Virus record (IMG/VR): IMGVR_UViG_3300033571_013806
Coordinates: 1 to 23,329 of that record
Source of the DNA: a virus
Reading direction: 5' to 3' (one strand)
Length of the DNA: 23,329 nt
Of this stretch, positions 11,501-21,972 are shown piece after piece. Under the pieces are notes generated by a model. It had not been told where the DNA came from. It saw only the letters and a list, made by a program, of their open reading frames with translations, and searched no databases. How positions within the stretch are numbered: position 1 is the stretch's first letter; each line of letters begins with the position of its first letter. The translations under genes were made by a program, and so were the position numbers.

Positions 11501-11899
11501 ATGGCACTCGGACTTGCCACAGCATTGCGCACCACGCGCGCCACGGACATCGTCACCGCGATTGACGCGGGTGCAGGCCCCGGCCTGCTGCGTATCTACG
11601 ACGGCGTCCGCCCCGCAACGGGCGGCAGCGTCACGAACCTGCTCGCGGAACTGACCTTGTCTGACCCGTGCGGCACGGTGACCAACGGCGTGTTGACGTT
11701 CAGCGCCATCACGCAGGACGCAAGTGCCAACGCCACGGGCACTGCGACATGGTTCCGCATCGTCACCAGCGCCGCCGCGTTCGTGCTTGACGGCAGCGTG
11801 GGGACGTCCGGTACGGACCTCAACCTTACGACCACCAGCGTCACCACGGGGCAGCCCGTGCAGGTGACGTCGCTTGTCTTCACAGAGGGGAATGCCTGA
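11501..11899 (+). CDS. Conserved phage virion-type protein (tail appendage candidate)
   Basis: The start ATG at 11501 follows AAGGAGG at 11487-11493. The 132-residue product has an N-terminal helix (ATALRTTRATDIVTAIDAGA) followed by a small beta domain (LLRIYDGVRPATGG, LTFSAITQDASANATGTATW, FVLDGSVGTSGTDL) and ends VTSLVFTEGNA. I recognise this pattern from phage proteins of unknown function near tail or decoration genes; the name of a family cannot be given with certainty. Its stop overlaps the ATG of the next gene (TGATG at 11897), so the two are translationally coupled and probably made in related amounts. Confidence 0.5.
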   Translation: MALGLATALRTTRATDIVTAIDAGAGPGLLRIYDGVRPATGGSVTNLLAELTLSDPCGTVTNGVLTFSAITQDASANATGTATWFRIVTSAAAFVLDGSVGTSGTDLNLTTTSVTTGQPVQVTSLVFTEGNA

Positions 11900-13135: not shown

Positions 13136-13678
13136 ATGGACCCATTGCTTGACAGCGCACACGACCAGTGGCGCCCGCTGAAGAATCTTGGCGTCACCTC
13201 GCAACCAGGGGAGCGCAACCCGCACCAAACGGCCACGGTGCTGCGGCAGTTCGGGCTGCCCACGTCGGCGCGCTACGCGCCGCGTGACGGGCTGACGTTC
13301 TGCAACATCTTCTCTTGGGACTTCACGCGCGCCATGGGCTGCGAGGTGCCGCACTGGCACGGCGACGGCGCGGCCCGGCGCGAACTCACCGCGAACGAAA
13401 CCGCAAAGCTCATGGCGATGGGCGCGTTCCCCGGGTGGCGCGAGTGCTCGCCGTTGGCCGCGTGGGACCATGCCGCGGTGGGCGAGCCGGTGCTGGCGCT
13501 GTGGCGCAACCCGTCGGGGCCGGGCCACGTGGCGGCGCTTGAGCCGCGCCCGCACGACGGCGACTGGCGCCGCGGTCTCGTCGCGCAGGCGGGCCGCGTG
13601 TGCGGCTACGAGATGCCGATCGCGGCGGCGTTCGGCGCATCACGCTTGCCTCTGGTGGAGTTCTACTTTCACGCGTGA
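13136..13678 (+). CDS. Endolysin candidate (CHAP or NlpC/P60-like cysteine hydrolase)
   Basis: The ATG at 13136 has GGGGGCGG at 13121-13128; an in-frame GTG at 13097 lies inside the previous gene and is less likely. The 180-residue product has FCNIFSWDF with Cys56 at the start of a helix, later ALWRNPSGPGHVAAL with His131, and a C-terminal VEFYFHA strand. A helix-capping Cys followed some 75 residues later by GHVAxL is the layout of CHAP and NlpC/P60 cell-wall peptidases, with Cys and His as catalytic pair and perhaps Glu136 as third residue. No signal peptide or wall-binding domain is visible. It probably cuts peptidoglycan at lysis; a virion-borne hydrolase is an alternative. Confidence 0.6.
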   Translation: MDPLLDSAHDQWRPLKNLGVTSQPGERNPHQTATVLRQFGLPTSARYAPRDGLTFCNIFSWDFTRAMGCEVPHWHGDGAARRELTANETAKLMAMGAFPGWRECSPLAAWDHAAVGEPVLALWRNPSGPGHVAALEPRPHDGDWRRGLVAQAGRVCGYEMPIAAAFGASRLPLVEFYFHA

Positions 13679-13689
13679 GAGGGGGCATC

Positions 13690-14454
13690 ATGGGCAAGCG
13701 CACAAAGCCGATCCCCGTCCAGCTCGTCACCGGGATCTTCGACGTCCACGTGCCTGACCATGACCCCACCGTCTGGGGCGCGTGGCTGGACTGGTGCCGG
13801 AACAACAGGCCGGACGTCGTGGTGCTCGGCGGCGACTTCATGGACGTGGAAAGCATGTCATCCCACGGAGGAAACCCTGACCCGCCGACGCTGGCCGACG
13901 AGATACGCCCGGCCAAGGCGTGCCTACGCGATGTACGCAAGGCCAACCCGGACGCGCGGATCGTGTACCTGGAGGGCAACCACGAGACGCGCTTTAGCCG
14001 GTGGATTGCCAACAACGCCAAGAACTTGCACGGGCTGGTGGACCTGCCAACGCTGCTCGGCCTTGAGGCGCTGGGCATCGAGTGGTTGCCCGAGGGCAAG
14101 CCGCTGAAACTTGGCAAGCTGCGGTTCATCCATGGCTTTGCATGCAGCGACGCGCACGCCAAGAAGCACCTGATGGACTACGGCAGCAGCGTCACCTACG
14201 GCCACACGCATAGGCCGCAGGTGTACACGCGCGGCCTCGTGGACGGCTCGGTGCACGGCGCGTTCGGCATGCCATGCGCGTGCCGCCTCAACGCGCCTTA
14301 CCTGAAGAACAAGCCGAGCGGATGGATGCAGGGCTTTGGCGTCTACTACGTGCGCGCCTCGGGCTGCTTCCACGTCTACCAAGTCCTCTTCTCACGCGGC
14401 GTTGCGGTCTGCCCGTCGGGCCGCCTCTACGGCAAGGAGGTGTCCGATGCATGA
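13690..14454 (+). CDS. Calcineurin-like metallophosphoesterase
   Basis: The ATG at 13690 is 11 bases after the previous stop with GAGAGGGGG upstream. The 254-residue protein shows every motif of the family in order: DVH (Asp18, His20), GGDF (Asp49), GNHE (Asn97, His98, Glu99), HGF (His148) and GHTHRP (171-176). These bind two metal ions and hydrolyse phosphoesters. Family members include phage protein phosphatases, SbcD/Mre11-type nucleases and nucleotide diesterases; the short insert regions here do not decide the substrate. The gene lies between a wall hydrolase and an HExxH protein. Metallophosphoesterase identity is firm, target unknown. Confidence 0.9.
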   Translation: MGKRTKPIPVQLVTGIFDVHVPDHDPTVWGAWLDWCRNNRPDVVVLGGDFMDVESMSSHGGNPDPPTLADEIRPAKACLRDVRKANPDARIVYLEGNHETRFSRWIANNAKNLHGLVDLPTLLGLEALGIEWLPEGKPLKLGKLRFIHGFACSDAHAKKHLMDYGSSVTYGHTHRPQVYTRGLVDGSVHGAFGMPCACRLNAPYLKNKPSGWMQGFGVYYVRASGCFHVYQVLFSRGVAVCPSGRLYGKEVSDA

Positions 14455-15681: not shown

Positions 15682-16043
15682 GGCGTCACCTGTGCATGGG
15701 CGGCGCAGTATGCGCCATGGGTTGCGTGATGGAGACAGCGCGAATGCAGGTCACCGATCCCCATGTAGTTGGCCACAAGGATCTCATCGTGATCGCACAG
15801 AAACGGCCTGCGTCTTTCCGCGCGCATGCGCTCCGTGGCTTTCCACGCGGCTGCCTTGGCCGCGGTGTCCGTCGCGTAGCGCGTTGGAAGCCGCGTGCTG
15901 TCGCCGCCAGGCGTGGTCACCGTCGCACGCCACGCACCCGGCACGCGGTAAACGTCGGCCACCCATCCGTCGTGTGAAGTGCGCTCCCACCTGGGATGCA
16001 CGCCCGTGCGGCTGTCGTGCCGCGTCCAGTTGCGGTGGCTCAT
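15678..16043 (-). CDS. Cys/His-rich protein, unknown
   Basis: The ATG at 16043 overlaps the preceding stop by four bases and has GAGGAGG about seven bases upstream; 121 residues. The first half (about 1-75) contains a strand-rich stretch (WVADVYRVPGAWRATVTTPG) followed by a helix (DTAAKAAAWKATERMRAE), like a small dsRBD-sized alpha/beta unit. The second half has Cys83-x-His85, Cys103-x-His105-His106 and Cys113-xx-His116, which could form a zinc site. No family is recognised. It lies in the middle of the minus operon of coupled small genes. Confidence 0.6.
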   Translation of the reverse strand: MSHRNWTRHDSRTGVHPRWERTSHDGWVADVYRVPGAWRATVTTPGGDSTRLPTRYATDTAAKAAAWKATERMRAERRRPFLCDHDEILVANYMGIGDLHSRCLHHATHGAYCAAHAQVTP

Positions 16044-16639
16044 GCGCGGCCCTCCTCGATGGCGGAGGGCAGGTGCGGCCCGCTCCACCCGAGCGCGCGA
16101 GCCATGCGCGCCAGCGATTCCGGGTAGAGGTCCGGCGGCTCCACGTCCAGCACGCGGGACGCCAAGCGGGTGCAGATCATGGCGCCGCGCACGGCGTCGT
16201 GCACCTGCGCCCTGTTCTTGATGCCGGACGCAACGCCGACGCTGCCGCGGAACGGCATTGGGAGATTGTCGAGGAACGCCACCAGCGCAGTAAGCGTGGC
16301 CTGCCCGATCTCCGCCGGGTCATACGGCGGGCGCTCGTAGGCCAGCCGCATGAAGCGATCCATGCCCGCCTGCCCGACGTGGCAGCGCCACAGCAGCGGC
16401 GCACCGTGGCCCGTCTGCGGCACGCCATAGGAGGCGCCCCATGGCATGAAGGTCGCGCGCGGCACGTCGCCATCCAGCCGCAGCAGGTAGCCGCCCACGC
16501 GGGCGACCACGTAGGCGTGCGTGCCGTGCCGGTCAGGGCCGTGGATACCTGGGCCGCCAAGCGCGGTGATGCTGGCGCGGTTGATCGCAAACCCGTGCGG
16601 GGTATGCGTGCGGTGGTGGACTGCGAGGTAGATGGTCAT
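16040..16639 (-). CDS. Unknown protein; possible permuted papain-fold (NlpC/P60-like) enzyme
   Basis: The ATG at 16639 overlaps the previous stop by four bases; 199 residues. Visible features are HGTHAYVVARVGGYLLRLDG with His41, then YERPPYDPAEIG (residues 101-112), and later AMICTRLASRVL with Cys156, followed by EPPDLYPESLARM. A His on a strand first and a helix-capping Cys second, with a YD region between, is the order of permuted papain-fold proteins (YiiX/YaeF and LRAT type). This is a pattern match by eye and could be wrong. If right, it could act on peptidoglycan, lipid or a host protein. It sits in an early operon, away from the lysis genes. Confidence 0.55.
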   Translation of the reverse strand: MTIYLAVHHRTHTPHGFAINRASITALGGPGIHGPDRHGTHAYVVARVGGYLLRLDGDVPRATFMPWGASYGVPQTGHGAPLLWRCHVGQAGMDRFMRLAYERPPYDPAEIGQATLTALVAFLDNLPMPFRGSVGVASGIKNRAQVHDAVRGAMICTRLASRVLDVEPPDLYPESLARMARALGWSGPHLPSAIEEGRA

Positions 16640-16965
16640 GGGCACGGCTCCGTTTCTCCAAGCACCTTGTCGCATGCGTCGATGACGTCGCGCAGGTTTG
16701 ACCGCTCTTGCTTGTTGCCGCAGTCAGAGCATGAGCACCAGCCACTGCATGACGAGCGGCGGATGTCTTCAAGGTCTTGAAAGGCGGCATACTTCACCTG
16801 CTTGCACAGCTCGCGGTCATTGCGCGACCACGAATACTTGTTCGCCAGCGCGTAGCGGTACACCACGAGCAGCGCGCGCGATAGATCCAACTCACGCAGC
16901 GCCAGTGCATGCTTGTGCTGGTCAAACGCGGCGAACGCGTCCGCCTTCTTCTTGCGCGTCGTCAT
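16636..16965 (-). CDS. Helical protein with cysteine cluster, unknown
   Basis: The ATG at 16965 overlaps the previous stop by four bases, with GGAGG about nine bases upstream; 109 residues. The N-terminus is basic (TTRKKKADAF), followed by helices (ALRELDLSRALLVVYRYALA) and then a cluster, SSCSGWCSCSDCGNKQ (Cys73, 77, 79, 82), with Cys54, Cys98 and Cys108 elsewhere. The cluster may bind zinc or an iron-sulfur group. No family is recognised. It lies between a zinc-ribbon-like gene and the possible papain-fold gene in the minus operon. Confidence 0.6.
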   Translation of the reverse strand: MTTRKKKADAFAAFDQHKHALALRELDLSRALLVVYRYALANKYSWSRNDRELCKQVKYAAFQDLEDIRRSSCSGWCSCSDCGNKQERSNLRDVIDACDKVLGETEPCP

Positions 16966-17141
16966 GGCTGCGCCTCCTCGGGCTGCGCGTCGTCGTCATC
17001 CATCGGCGACATGGCCACGCAGTGGTCGCACACGCCGTCCGCGTTGAGGTCGGTAGACCCGATCCCGCACACCTCGCACGGCTCTGGACGATGGTCACAA
17101 GAGGGATCGCCGGGGTGGCAACCGCAGCACCATGGGCTCAT
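16962..17141 (-). CDS. Zinc-ribbon-like miniprotein
   Basis: The ATG at 17141 overlaps the stop of the regulator gene (TGATG), with GGAGG five bases before it; 59 residues. It contains eight cysteines: Cys5, 6, 8, 15 and then CEVC (22, 25) and CDHC (38, 41), spaced like a treble-clef or zinc ribbon, with an acidic tail (MDDDDAQPEEAQP). The CEVC ... LNADGVCDHC half is similar to CERC ... LSDSGLCEPC in the 69-residue protein at 20116-20325, so the two may be paralogues. Zinc binding is inferred. A role as a small transcription or replication adaptor is possible, not shown. Confidence 0.65.
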   Translation of the reverse strand: MSPWCCGCHPGDPSCDHRPEPCEVCGIGSTDLNADGVCDHCVAMSPMDDDDAQPEEAQP

Positions 17142-17362
17142 CACAGCCTCCGCAAGATCCGCAGGCCAAGCAGGCCCACGAGAAGTTCAACCGTTGACGG
17201 GAGAGGTTCGTTTAGCCCTCGCTCCCACGCAGACACCGCAGCGCGCGTCAACCCAACGCATGCCGCGATATCCGCATGGGAAGCCCCGGCCCGTACGCGC
17301 ACACGACGGAACGACGCCGCGTCAAACCTGTATGCCTTGCCGTTCACGTCGTATGCACGCAC
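17141..17362 (-). CDS. XRE-family (Cro/CI-type) helix-turn-helix regulator
   Basis: The start is a GTG at 17362 with GAGGTGA and five bases of spacing, a strong site. The 73-residue product is almost only a DNA-binding domain: VRVRAGASHADIAACVGLTR followed by AAVSAWERGLNEPLPSTVEL, the classic helix-turn-helix with Ser/Trp-Glu-x-Gly signature (AVSAWERG). There is no dimerisation or peptidase domain, so it is Cro-like in size. Its gene is the third main gene of the minus operon, and a palindromic site lies in the divergent control region upstream, a plausible target for feedback regulation of both early operons. Its target is inferred. Confidence 0.85.
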   Translation of the reverse strand: MRAYDVNGKAYRFDAASFRRVRVRAGASHADIAACVGLTRAAVSAWERGLNEPLPSTVELLVGLLGLRILRRL

Positions 17363-17371
17363 GGTGTCACC

Positions 17372-17857
17372 TCACGCCAGCTTGGGCTTGCCAGCCATGA
17401 ACGCCGGGGGCTTCTTGGTAGCACCGGGCGCAGCCGCGGGAACGGGCAGCGACGCGCCGCCCGCGGGCATGACGTCGTTGATCACGTTCTTGGCTTCGAA
17501 GGCGCCGGACGCCTTGAGCGTGCCGACCTTGATGATGACGTCGCCCACCAGCGAGTCCACGTCCTTTTCGGTGGGCATGCCCAGGGCAACCTGGAGTTTG
17601 GCGAGGCGGCTGCGGTCACGCGCCACGCGCTTGGGGTCCGGCCCCGCCACGGTGAACTTCTCCTTGACGAAGCGGCGCGCGTGCGGCCCCTCGGTGATGG
17701 TGTACGACGTGGCCAGCGTCGTGCTGCCGTCCTCATTCTGGAAGACCTTCCACCTGTCGATCTTCGCGGCGTATTCGCCGTCCGGCAGGAGGCCACCGGA
17801 GAACCCGGCGGACGGGGCAACCGTCGTGGAATCAAAGTCAAGCGTGTACGTGCTCAT
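17372..17857 (-). CDS. DUF669-like protein, ssDNA-binding partner candidate
   Basis: The ATG at 17857 gives 161 residues; the upstream purine stretch GGAAGAGAGAGAGAAG serves as a weak ribosome site. The N-terminal part has FSGGLLPDGEYAAKIDRWKV, the LLP-x-G-x-Y signature of DUF669-type phage proteins, then a strand-rich region (TTLATSYTITEGPHARRFVK) and a disordered Ala/Pro/Lys tail (about 132-161) as often seen in single-strand binding proteins. DUF669 genes commonly sit beside Sak4-like recombinases or replication genes; this one follows directly a Sak4-like gene. A single-strand binding or recombination accessory function is likely but not shown by a catalytic residue. No acidic SSB-type tip is present. 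Confidence 0.65.
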   Translation of the reverse strand: MSTYTLDFDSTTVAPSAGFSGGLLPDGEYAAKIDRWKVFQNEDGSTTLATSYTITEGPHARRFVKEKFTVAGPDPKRVARDRSRLAKLQVALGMPTEKDVDSLVGDVIIKVGTLKASGAFEAKNVINDVMPAGGASLPVPAAAPGATKKPPAFMAGKPKLA

Positions 17858-17946
17858 GGCTTCTCTCTCTCTTCCGTGCTGCTCGTATGCGGCGCCCATC
17901 TCCGCGTCAGGGCTGGGCCGGGATTACGGCTCCGGCGGGCCGTCAT
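17854..17946 (-). CDS. Possible leader peptide or micro-ORF (30 residues)
   Basis: In the 95-base gap between the Sak4-like and DUF669-like genes, ATG at 17946-17944 opens 30 codons (MTARRSRNPGPALTRRWAPH ...) ending in TGA that overlaps the DUF669 ATG by four bases (ATGA). The overlap type matches the other junctions of this operon, and the peptide is basic. No ribosome binding site stands before its ATG, so it may be chance or be read only by ribosomes finishing the upstream gene, two bases beyond its stop region. Low confidence. Confidence 0.25.
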   Translation of the reverse strand: MTARRSRNPGPALTRRWAPHTSSTEEREKP

Positions 17947-17952
17947 GCAAGG

Positions 17953-18672
17953 TTATTCCGCGGGCTGCACCGTGCCGCGAATCTTGGCGAGGATGGCGCC
18001 GAGGTCCGCAGGCTCCAGCGGGTCAAGCTTGCCGGACCTGTCCTTGGCGTCAACCTTCGTGCCCGCTGCGGTCTGCAGCAGGCGCACCGTGTTCCCATCC
18101 GCGTCCTTGTGGACGCTGAGATAGAAGACCTCGTCCACCAGGTACGGCAACGCGTTGCCCAACTTGCTGCCCGGCAGCATGGGGCGGATCACGGCGGGCG
18201 AATCCTCGTCGGGCTTCCACTGCTCGGCCTTGGCGATCAAGTAGACGTCGCACGCGAGGTCACGGAATGACTTGACCAGCGCCACCATCTGGTCCTGCAG
18301 TTCGCCGTATGCCTTGCGCGGGTCGCGCGTGTTGCCCTTCTCCGCCGCGAGCACGGCCTCGGCAACCTCTGACACGCTGTCCACCGCGAGCCAGTCCAGT
18401 TCGCCAGCCGCAACCGCGGCCTTGGCGGCCACGTACACCTCGCGGACGTCTGCGATGGTGCGGACCTCCACGACGCTGACGTCACCGCGCACCTCTCCCG
18501 CCTCAACAAGGCGGCGCAGCGCCAGCAGCCCGGCCTCCGCTGAGATCACAATCCCACGCCCCGGCAGGGTTGCCATCAGCGTGGTCTTGCCACTGCCCGC
18601 AAAGCCAAACGTCAGCGCCTTCACCTTGCCGTCACTCACCACCTCGGACAACTTCCTGAACACGATCGCCAT
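17953..18672 (-). CDS. Sak4-like RecA-fold ATPase (single-strand annealing recombinase candidate)
   Basis: The ATG at 18672 has GGAGG eight bases upstream; the frame is open farther up, but into the control region. The 239-residue product has a Walker A motif GFAGSGKTT (23-31), a Walker B-like ELDWLAVDS (91-99), KSFRDLACDVYLIAKAEQW (134-152) resembling the RecA core strand, and a C-terminal region with TVRLLQTAAGTKVDAKDRSG. This is the pattern of short RecA-fold phage ATPases (AAA_24/Sak4 type), which promote single-strand annealing with an SSB. The DUF669 gene downstream and the Cas4-like nuclease across the divergent region support a recombination/replication role. A general NTPase of replication is the alternative. 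Confidence 0.75.
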   Translation of the reverse strand: MAIVFRKLSEVVSDGKVKALTFGFAGSGKTTLMATLPGRGIVISAEAGLLALRRLVEAGEVRGDVSVVEVRTIADVREVYVAAKAAVAAGELDWLAVDSVSEVAEAVLAAEKGNTRDPRKAYGELQDQMVALVKSFRDLACDVYLIAKAEQWKPDEDSPAVIRPMLPGSKLGNALPYLVDEVFYLSVHKDADGNTVRLLQTAAGTKVDAKDRSGKLDPLEPADLGAILAKIRGTVQPAE

Positions 18673-18839
18673 GGTCCTGCCTCCGTGCGCCTGCCGTCTG
18701 CGGCGCCGCTCTTGTGTGTCCTCCTTTTGCCCGCGTCCGGTGATCTGTGCAAGGGTAAAGTTTCTACGTAGAAAGAAATCGCTAGACACGTGCACCCGCC
18801 AGCGGGCACAACACCGGCACACACAGGAGGTCACCCCAG
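18673..18839. promoter_or_regulatory. Divergent early control region
   Basis: This 167-base stretch separates the two oppositely directed early operons and must hold both promoters, though no pair of -35/-10 boxes is convincing by eye. It contains an AT-rich island (about 18752-18780) in an otherwise GC-rich sequence, a 14-base palindrome, CACGTG at 18787-18792 and a small inverted repeat CCCGC-CA-GCGGG (18795-18806). On the minus strand an SD-like AAAAGGAGGAC (18728-18718) is not followed by any start codon at usable distance. AGGAGG at 18825-18830 serves the plus-strand gene. Confidence 0.6.
18761..18774. promoter_or_regulatory. Perfect 14-base palindrome, operator candidate
   Basis: TTTCTACGTAGAAA reads identically on both strands, centred between 18767 and 18768. 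It lies in the AT-rich part of the divergent control region. Its size and symmetry suit binding of a dimeric helix-turn-helix repressor; the XRE-type protein encoded at 17141-17362 is the nearest candidate. Binding is inferred; no second copy was noticed in the window. Confidence 0.6.
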
Positions 18840-19781
18840 ATGCGCCGCTTGCCATCCTTTTCCCAGTGGGACCGCGCCCTCGCGTGCCAGCCCAGCGAGA
18901 CGCTGCGCCACGTGCGCACGCCGTCGCCACACGCCAAGCGCGGATCCGCGCTTCACAAGTTCATGGAGATATACGTCAGCACCAACCGCGACCGGGAGGC
19001 CGCGCTTGCGGCCATCCACGAGGAGTTCCGCGCCGAGGCCGCACGCATTGACGTGGGCAACTTCGCGTTCCCCGCCGAGGTAGCCACGGAGGTAGCCGTT
19101 GGACTGGATCTGCTGCGGCAGGAGGCGCGGACGCTGGACGTCGCGTACCGCGCATACCCTGATCCCGCGTCCCCGTGGGAGACGCATGGAACGCTGGACC
19201 TGATCGGCAGGGACGGAGATCACGGGGACAAGGACGGCATGGTGGTCCTTGACTACAAGTTTGGCTTTGCCGAGACGGAGAGCACCGACGGGATGCAGCT
19301 TGCGCTGGGCGCCGCCAGCGCGCTGGCGCTGGAGCCATCAGCAGAGCGCGCATGGGTTGGCATCGTCCGTCTTGTGGACGGCGTCATGCTCAAGCCCTAC
19401 ATGAGGACCGAGCCGTACACGCGCGACAGCCTGCGACCCGTCATTGAGCGCGCGCTTACGTGGGCCGCCAAGTTCCGCGCGGGCGAACTGTCGCGCACCT
19501 ACGAGATGGGTGACCATTGCCGCTACTGCCCGGCCTTCCGCGTGTGCCCGGCGCAGGTGCACCTGCTGCGTGGCGGCTTTGCCGAGGACAACGACGCGAT
19601 CACGGATCTGCCAGCAGCATACGAGCGGGTCACGCGGCTGGACCGCGCGCTGCGGGTGGCCAAGGACCAGTTGAGGGAGCACGCGTTGCGCGAGCCCATC
19701 CCCATGGGTGATGGCCGCGTGTACGGGATGGTCAACGGACAGGTGCGGGCGCACCGCCCGCGGGAAGGTGGTGGCGAATGA
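18840..19781 (+). CDS. Cas4/RecB-like PD-(D/E)XK nuclease with iron-sulfur cysteines
   Basis: The ATG at 18840 follows AGGAGG at 18825-18830; 313 residues. Motifs in order: RGSALHKFME (His39, motif I), HGTLDLIG (Asp120), VVLDYKFG (Asp138, Lys140), and MQLALGA (Gln153), the active-site set of RecB-family nucleases. Cys16 near the N-terminus plus Cys227, Cys230 and Cys236 (HCRYCPAFRVCP) fit the four ligands of a [4Fe-4S] cluster as in Cas4 and AddB. It probably resects DNA ends, supplying single strands for the Sak4-like recombinase encoded divergently. No CRISPR array or Cas1 gene is near, so it is a stand-alone phage version. Substrate polarity is unknown. Confidence 0.8.
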   Translation: MRRLPSFSQWDRALACQPSETLRHVRTPSPHAKRGSALHKFMEIYVSTNRDREAALAAIHEEFRAEAARIDVGNFAFPAEVATEVAVGLDLLRQEARTLDVAYRAYPDPASPWETHGTLDLIGRDGDHGDKDGMVVLDYKFGFAETESTDGMQLALGAASALALEPSAERAWVGIVRLVDGVMLKPYMRTEPYTRDSLRPVIERALTWAAKFRAGELSRTYEMGDHCRYCPAFRVCPAQVHLLRGGFAEDNDAITDLPAAYERVTRLDRALRVAKDQLREHALREPIPMGDGRVYGMVNGQVRAHRPREGGGE

Positions 19782-20119
19782 TGACCGAGGACGAAGTGGT
19801 GGCCACGATGCTGGTCAGCATGGCCGGGCAGATCGGCGTGCTGCGCGCGAAGAACCGCGCGTTGCGCCGCGAGGTGGAGCACCTGCGCAAGGTGGCCGAG
19901 AAGGCGCGCCGCAAGGCGTTGCGCCGCAAGGCTGATGCTGGTTTTTGGGGGCCGAACGAGCGCACGCGATACGTCGAACAGCTTGACTTTGCGCTGCGCG
20001 TCTGTGCGGCGGATCAGCGCTGGCATCCTGAATGGCGTTATGAGGGAACTCATGAACTGGCGCGCGCAGGATTCTTGCGCGGACGCGCAGACGCACTCTG
20101 TCAGGGGGTGCCGCGATGA
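19778..20119 (+). CDS. Coiled-coil basic protein, unknown
   Basis: The ATG at 19778 overlaps the preceding stop by four bases, with GGAAGGTGG upstream; an ATG at 19781 is equally possible. The 113-residue product begins with a helix and a leucine-heptad, highly basic coiled coil (RAKNRALRREVEHLRKVAEK, about 24-50), followed by a less regular part (NERTRYVEQLDFALRVCAAD). The basic coiled coil could bind nucleic acid. No family is recognised. It is coupled at both ends to neighbours in the early plus-strand operon. Confidence 0.6.
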   Translation: MMTEDEVVATMLVSMAGQIGVLRAKNRALRREVEHLRKVAEKARRKALRRKADAGFWGPNERTRYVEQLDFALRVCAADQRWHPEWRYEGTHELARAGFLRGRADALCQGVPR

Positions 20120-20549: not shown

Positions 20550-20740
20550 CGGAAGAAGAAGCGCGGGCCATCGTGGCACGCGGTGACACGGAGGAGATCG
20601 TGGGCTGGCTGCGGCGCGTGTGCGTCCGCGCCGACGAGTGCCCGCGGTGCAACAGCGTGGTGCGTGACCTGTACCTGGTCGGCGCGCCGGGGCTCAACAG
20701 GTGGATGTGCGCGGCGTGCCGCGCGGAGGTGACGGGATGA
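20546..20740 (+). CDS. Small CxxC protein, unknown
   Basis: The ATG at 20546 overlaps the preceding stop by four bases with AGGTGA as ribosome site; 64 residues. An acidic N-terminal helix (TEEEARAIVARGDTEEIVGW) is followed by CPRC (32, 35) and CAAC (55, 58) about 20 residues apart, which suits a zinc ribbon with a helical cap. The stop overlaps the methyltransferase ATG (ATGA). The gene could encode a partner or regulator of the methyltransferase, but no evidence beyond coupling exists. Confidence 0.6.
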   Translation: MTEEEARAIVARGDTEEIVGWLRRVCVRADECPRCNSVVRDLYLVGAPGLNRWMCAACRAEVTG

Positions 20741-21972
20741 CACAGGGACTGCTGTTTGACGACGTGCCGCAGGAGGCTCCGCCGCCGTCGGTGGATGACG
20801 TGCTGGCCAAGGCGCGCGCGGGCGATCACACGTTCACGCTGACCGTGGGCAACTCGCTGGAGGTGCTGCCCACCTTGGCAGCCAACAGCGTGGACGCGGT
20901 GGTGTGCGATCCTCCGTATGAGCTCGGGTTCATGGGCAAGAAGTGGGACGCGTCGGGGATCGCGTTCTCCGTGCACCTGTGGCACGAGGTGCTGCGCGTG
21001 CTCAAGCCGGGCGGCATGCTGCTCGCGTTCAGCGGCACGCGGACGCAACACCGCATGGTGTGCGCCATCGAGGACGCGGGATTTGAGGTGCGGGACCAGA
21101 TGGCGTGGACATATGGTTCGGGATTCCCAAAGTCGCTGGACGTCAGCAAAGCGATTGACAAAGACGCGGGCGTGTGGCGCGCCTGCACGGCCGCGCCACA
21201 CGCCGATGACGAACAGCGGTCATTCGGCCAGCACTACGAGAGCACCGACAAGGGAGAGCCCGCCACCGACGCCGCCCGTGAGTGGGCCGGATGGGGCACG
21301 GCGTTGAAGCCCGCGTGGGAATCCATCTGCGTGGCGCGCAAGCCGCTGGACGGCACCGTGGCGGACAACGTGCAGAAGTGGGGTACGGGCGGGATCAACG
21401 TGGACGCGGGGCGCGTTGGTACGGATGAGCCTCGGCCAGCGCTGGAGCACACTGGCCGCACCGGCAATGTCTTTGGTGCCGGGCTTGAAGGTTCGCGCTC
21501 CATCGGTGACACGATGCTTGGCCGTTGGCCCGCCAACATCATCCACGACGGCAGCGCCGAGGTGGCGGGCCTGCTCGGTTCCGCCGCCCGCTTCTTCTAC
21601 TGCGCCAAAGCAAGCCGCGGAGAGCGCGAGGCAGGATGCGAGGCGCTGCCCGCCATGGCCGGGCATGAAGCGGTGGGGCGCGAGGAAGGCAGCGCGGGTG
21701 CGGCTAACCCGCGTGCTGGTGCCTCCCGCACCAGCACGTTCGTCCGCAACTTCCATCCGACGGTGAAGCCGGTGGACCTGATGCGCTACATGGTTTCACT
21801 TGTAGCCAAGCCCGGTGCGCTGGTGCTGGACCCGTTCGCGGGCAGCGGCACCACGGGGATCGGCTGCGTGCTTGCGGGCGTTCGCTTTCACGGCATCGAG
21901 ATGGACACCGCGCACGCATGCATCGCGTGGCACCGGCTCACATGGTGGGCCGCCAACCGGAGGAAGTCATGA
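20737..21972 (+). CDS. DNA methyltransferase, beta class, DPPY type
   Basis: The ATG at 20737 overlaps the previous stop; 411 residues. VVCDPPYELG (DPPY at 58-61) is the catalytic motif IV of amino-methyltransferases and DPFAGSGTT (365-373) is the SAM-binding motif I. Motif IV before motif I is the beta-class order, with the target recognition region in between (about 170-330, including GGINVDAGR, WPANIIHDG and FFYCAKASRGERE). NFHPTVKPVDLMRYM (about 340) is a typical motif leading to motif I. DPPY favours N6-adenine over N4-cytosine as product. No partner restriction gene is next to it, so it is an orphan that may shield phage DNA or mark it. Specificity cannot be read from sequence. Confidence 0.9.
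   Translation: MTQGLLFDDVPQEAPPPSVDDVLAKARAGDHTFTLTVGNSLEVLPTLAANSVDAVVCDPPYELGFMGKKWDASGIAFSVHLWHEVLRVLKPGGMLLAFSGTRTQHRMVCAIEDAGFEVRDQMAWTYGSGFPKSLDVSKAIDKDAGVWRACTAAPHADDEQRSFGQHYESTDKGEPATDAAREWAGWGTALKPAWESICVARKPLDGTVADNVQKWGTGGINVDAGRVGTDEPRPALEHTGRTGNVFGAGLEGSRSIGDTMLGRWPANIIHDGSAEVAGLLGSAARFFYCAKASRGEREAGCEALPAMAGHEAVGREEGSAGAANPRAGASRTSTFVRNFHPTVKPVDLMRYMVSLVAKPGALVLDPFAGSGTTGIGCVLAGVRFHGIEMDTAHACIAWHRLTWWAANRRKS

Follow-up and report, generated by a model that had tools for sequence, protein, structure and literature searches.

Which element could govern two early operons that point away from each other across one short gap, and is the perfect palindrome in that gap part of the answer? 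The question is raised by a virus record of 23,329 bases (GC 0.67), possibly a fragment, which was analysed over its whole length and is referred to here as the window. The answer that we prefer, and to which we give slightly less than an even chance, is an ordinary divergent early promoter with the palindrome as its single operator, plausibly a putative binding site of the XRE protein of 73 amino acids encoded in the same region. That the promoters are active, that the palindrome works as an operator and that the XRE protein is its ligand are each what we infer from the DNA and its predicted products.

The divergent gap and its palindrome

The features of the locus are listed below by window position.

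17141–17362, minus strand: 73-aa XRE/Cro-type regulator, candidate ligand of TTTCTACGTAGAAA (HTH_3, 1.4e-6; AlphaFold2 pLDDT 95.0)
17372–17899, minus strand: DUF669 protein, candidate single-strand-binding protein (Pfam DUF669, 4.6e-7; phrog_2300, 1e-18)
17953–18672, minus strand: sak4-type annealase, first gene of the leftward operon (phrog_124, 2.3e-42; Pfam AAA_24, 4.1e-19)
18673–18839, no strand: divergent intergenic gap between the ATG codons of sak4 and the exonuclease gene
18755–18780, no strand: AT-rich island, one of four clusters in the window of 20-mers with a GC content of at most 30%
18761–18774, no strand: palindrome TTTCTACGTAGAAA, candidate operator, single site in the window at ≤3 mismatches
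18840–19781, plus strand: PD-(D/E)XK exonuclease (Cas4/RecB-like), first gene of the rightward operon (PDDEXK_1, 1.4e-10; phrog_69 exonuclease, 1.8e-18)

The gap measures 167 bp, has a GC content of 0.62 and extends from the ATG of sak4 (18672, minus strand) to that of the exonuclease gene (18840, plus strand). An earlier note on this DNA had called it the only sizeable gap, which is correct as regards the divergent sak4/exonuclease junction. The leftward operon has the order sak4, DUF669 (with a probable ATG start near 17855) and XRE, and the rightward operon encodes the exonuclease, small proteins and an N6/N4 DNA methyltransferase. Ribosome sites of the GGAGG type are found at both sak4 and the exonuclease gene. 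The methyltransferase (20701–21972) has many relatives in viral contigs, with 43–55% identity. Elsewhere in the window, a metallo-phosphoesterase is encoded at 13600–14454 (phrog_221, 5.5e-34).

As the earlier note had described, TTTCTACGTAGAAA is a perfect 14-base palindrome in an AT-rich island of GC-rich DNA. It lies 88 bp from the start codon of sak4 and 65 bp from that of the exonuclease gene. The rest of the window, where the earlier note had proposed to look for further copies, contains none at ≤3 mismatches, with 0.03 other matches expected.

Among 20,000 dinucleotide shuffles each, those of the gap yielded a perfect palindrome of at least 14 bases 229 times (1.1%) and those of the 35-bp island 41 times; for TTTCTACGTAGAAA in the gap, the shuffle result is suggestive, not overwhelming. 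Since the window contains 10 such palindromes, where shuffling gives a mean of 4.2 and, in 60 shuffles, at most 12, length by itself is unremarkable. What distinguishes TTTCTACGTAGAAA is its position and AT content: it is the sole one of the ten inside the gap and the richest in AT (0.71; the runner-up has 0.57). These figures bear on the reading that the palindrome arose by chance within a promoter spacer or UP-type region rich in AT and that any regulation acts elsewhere. A frequency of 1.1% is not extreme for a feature chosen after reading 23 kb, and the surplus of palindromes over the shuffle mean points the same way; on the other hand, the one member of the ten in the divergent gap, also the most AT-rich, is placed where an operator would be. 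We consider a chance origin somewhat unlikely. The exonuclease gene itself contains a longer perfect palindrome, AAGCGCGGATCCGCGCTT, of 18 bases (18936–18953).

Promoter-like pairs in the gap

The best promoter-like pair in each direction and one alternative were as follows.

18761–18789, minus strand: best pair toward sak4, weak, GTGTCT-17-TAGAAA (score 4.0, rank 96 of 232,980 in the window)
18747–18774, plus strand: best pair toward the exonuclease gene, weak, GTGCAA-16-TAGAAA (score 3.0, rank 203 of 232,980)
18783–18812, plus strand: alternative pair, TAGACA-18-CACAAC (rank 212 of 232,980)

Both best pairs take their −10 element from the TAGAAA arms of TTTCTACGTAGAAA, one per direction. TAGAAA agrees with TATAAT at 4/6 positions and misses the final conserved T, and the −35 partners are poor (3/6); the TAGACA of the alternative pair matches TTGACA at 5/6 positions. 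According to the earlier note, promoter boxes were not recognisable. A strict scan of 16000–20000 for promoter or terminator consensus was indeed empty, but weak sigma-70-like pairs do score in the gap. The special sigma factor or phage activator that had been proposed in their place is unnecessary, because the gap pairs, though weak, rank 96 and 203 of 232,980 and the relatives have TTGACA promoters at the equivalent place.

The use of both arms of TTTCTACGTAGAAA as −10 elements also fits another reading, namely that the palindrome serves not as an operator but as core of a bidirectional promoter, in which the arms would provide overlapping, opposite −10-like TAGAAA elements and polymerase would start either way. 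E. coli has many bidirectional promoters of the kind in which both directions share one symmetrical −10 element (PMC12825309), and the top-ranking pair each way in the gap is of this form. The mismatches of TAGAAA and of its −35 partners to the consensus argue against this reading, as does the base composition of the island, which alone favours these matches, and we regard it as unlikely.

An inverted repeat in a possibly transcribed leader might also act at the RNA level, as a leader hairpin or a terminator. Folding was no better than in shuffles for three of the four window stretches (z −1.77 for the fourth), no Rfam match was obtained and the strict scan of 16000–20000 gave no terminator-like site, all of which makes a role in RNA extremely improbable. 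An RNA element, a tRNA and a terminator were accordingly all rejected as candidates.

The regulator and comparable switches

The earlier note had pointed to a Cro-sized XRE regulator within one of the divergent operons, and this was borne out: the 73-aa protein exceeds the Pfam cut-offs for both HTH_3 (28.7 bits, cut-off 23) and HTH_31 (8.1e-7, 29.7 bits, cut-off 27). Its gene is the third of the leftward operon and does not adjoin the gap. The AlphaFold2 model of all 73 residues shows an N-terminal strand pair, four helices and a C-terminal strand, a Cro/C1-type fold predicted with high confidence. Its structural matches are mainly small HTH regulators, among them 9iaq (Z 10.1), CylR2 (1utx; Z 9.2, 61 aligned residues, rmsd 2.0) and the P22 c2 repressor on operator DNA (2r1j; Z 9.1, 62 aligned, rmsd 2.3), the Z values of 9–10 lying on a scale that often gives middling values. 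Since Foldseek gave no match for the model at E ≤ 0.001, the likeness to known structures is at fold level only; a phmmer search of solved structures with the protein gave no match up to 0.01. CylR2 and the controller proteins of restriction-modification systems are similar to the XRE protein in size and fold, but their identity to it is 12–23%, and a common fold is no proof of common function.

The palindrome could be bound instead by a different dimeric regulator of the phage or the host. No sequence feature ties the XRE protein to the palindrome, and if the record is a fragment, more regulators may be encoded outside it. Against this, apart from the XRE protein no clear transcription regulator was recognised in those window proteins that were scanned, and we hold the involvement of another regulator to be improbable.

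If the palindrome is the operator of the XRE protein, as we prefer, the gap would be where a tailed phage has the divergent promoters of its early genes. These would be two weak sigma-70-like promoters that begin in or beside the AT-rich island, from which the leftward transcript would carry sak4, DUF669 and XRE, and the rightward transcript would run from the exonuclease to the methyltransferase genes. With TTTCTACGTAGAAA as the sole operator, one bound dimer would span both promoters. The ligand would most plausibly be the 73-aa XRE product of the leftward operon; on accumulating, it would repress its own operon together with the exonuclease operon. The locus would then be a compact case of phage recombination genes controlled both ways from one site; otherwise, if the palindrome is not an operator, it represents routine phage promoter anatomy.

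The closest described case in the literature searched, which for the operator and cassette ideas otherwise gave background of a general kind, is phage PY54, whose Cro binds a single operator, OR3, a 16-bp palindrome upstream of the prophage repressor gene, in gel-shift assays (PMC4488713). Common to both is a small Cro-type protein together with one short palindromic site in a phage early control region. They differ in that the PY54 site was bound in gel shifts and has the repressor gene downstream, whereas the site in the window is a candidate operator flanked by sak4 and the exonuclease gene. The locus also departs from a cI/cro switch of the lambda type, in which a repressor gene adjoins the divergent gap and several related operators are present: here sak4 and the PD-(D/E)XK exonuclease gene flank the gap, and one site is found at ≤3 mismatches in a record that may be a fragment.

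Distant sak4 loci and other occurrences of the palindrome

No close relatives were found in viral_contigs by single-protein scans with the exonuclease, Sak4 and a 772-aa window protein, which matches Pfam Phage-tail_3 at E 0.01 only, below the family cut-off. Scans of genome_contigs with Sak4 alone and then with a Sak4 alignment found no close relatives either, and thus no host was identified. In phage records, a DNA search gave a single, uninformative match of 48 bases, tblastn with the exonuclease gave no match and the XRE protein gave one weak match; the Sak4 matches in phage and plasmid records were all less than 60% identical. Alignment searches of viral_contigs yielded distant sak4 relatives, approximately 40–50% identical among the matches listed. 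The nearest structural kin seen were L282 and L345, which match a virion structural protein of the window (11501–11899, phrog_3758) at 56–58% identity and also carry methyltransferase relatives.

The counts of sak4 loci are based on the best 80 of at least 600 matches in each of two Sak4 alignment scans of viral_contigs. From 141 loci, duplicates with an identical sak4 start, loci without a plus-strand sak4 match and those with the expected sak4 start less than 350 bp from the locus start were removed, which left 103 distinct loci; a set of 104 was formed by adding L292 by hand (L208, also entered by hand, was already included). Among the 103, the gene upstream of sak4 was divergent in 43 and codirectional in 58, and none was called in two. 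Genes were called with our own, error-prone caller, and some of the 'gaps', which reach up to 2325 bp, are surely miscalled. L208 was called codirectional, yet by eye the sequence just upstream in it is similar to that at the start of the L206 helicase gene.

A divergent promoter region between early operons, as the earlier note had proposed, is the natural reading of the gap, for the distant relatives have the same arrangement on the side of sak4, where the partner is of the Cro type in several. In a Pfam scan of eight short divergent partners, five matched P22_Cro, one HTH_26 and one, weakly and below the cut-off, HTH_17; one had no family. In L139, L154, L162, L178 and L188, as in the window, sak4 lies opposite another gene across a gap, which in these five measures 93 to 116 bp and has a promoter-like TTGACA box. 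In the five, however, the partner is itself a Cro of the P22_Cro type and TTTCTACGTAGAAA is absent, whereas in the window sak4 faces the exonuclease gene and XRE is third in the sak4 operon. By eye, TTGAC is present in 28 of the 43 divergent gaps among the matches listed.

An XRE homologue follows sak4 on the same strand in L121, L138/L216, L157/L203, L161/L212, L206, L208, L214 and L292, with a DUF669 match between the two in L161/L212, L208, L214 and L292. The sak4 of distant relatives with this order is about 45–49% identical to that of the window. Six of these loci (L121, L161, L206, L208, L214 and L292) share with the window both the gene order and a short divergent gap, but where the window has the palindrome they have a TCAA-N9-TTGACA dyad or a variant of it, and the divergent partner, where tested (L206 and L161), is a ResIII-type helicase. 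The dyad consists of two back-to-back −35-like boxes, nine bases apart, beside sak4. Within 150 bp upstream of sak4, it was found in 4 of the 104 listed loci (L121, L206, L208 and L292), all of which carry XRE, and spacers of any other length between 5 and 13 did not occur there in the 104; L161 and L214 have the variant CCAA-N9-TTGACA. The shared dyad of the four could be explained by common descent. Scores of promoter-like pairs toward sak4 range from 6.9 to 10.3 in L121, L161, L206 and L208, higher than in the window gap. The window gap was found by inspection to lack a TCAA-N9-TTGA dyad, the sequence of which differs from TTTCTACGTAGAAA.

The palindrome itself did not recur within 300 bp upstream of sak4 in any of the 103 listed loci at ≤3 mismatches, the best match having at least four, and none of the 43 divergent loci among the matches listed has a perfect palindrome of at least 14 bases in its gap. 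The earlier note had proposed the divergent regions of relatives as a check on the operator; the absence of TTTCTACGTAGAAA from these distant loci weakens the idea but does not refute it, because both the gap partner and the recognition helix of the XRE protein differ there. The helix reads TRAAVSAW in the window and TAAAVSSW or a near variant in most cassette relatives, and one common operator across the sak4-XRE relatives is therefore not expected. An extended proposal, which we consider decidedly unlikely, is that one operator couples the exonuclease and Sak4/DUF669 halves of a recombination system, with the XRE protein setting both and keeping their ratio, and that the operator has been re-invented within the sak4-XRE cassette family, the dyad changing with the recognition helix. 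The recurring sak4-XRE order and the fixed dyad in four contigs would allow a comparison of regulator and operator across a family.

Outside these loci, an exact scan of viral_contigs for TTTCTACGTAGAAA gave 115 stretches, many repeating one another, and none had window-like early genes beside it, which favours the chance reading. When 16 window proteins were compared by tblastn with the palindrome loci and L002–L004, a short methyltransferase match was the only one in the palindrome loci. A shared TTTCTACGTAGAAA by itself is thus no indication of a common function. No mention of the letters of TTTCTACGTAGAAA was found in the literature searched for the sequence.

At least 13 exact copies of TTTCTACGTAGAAA, many of them lengthened to GTTTCTACGTAGAAAC, are present in a 115-kb viral contig, IMGVR_UViG_3300007775_000001 (at L014, L027, L033, L037, L051, L056, L068, L074, L087, L100 with two, L103 and L112), and a 108-kb contig, 3300020186_000001, has several copies as well. 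In these contigs, TTTCTACGTAGAAA resembles an intergenic repeat of large viruses, and no connection to the early genes of the window was detected. Some of the copies in the 115-kb contig have a stop codon directly on one side and a start codon on the other, and a further copy lies just past the apparent end of a tRNA.
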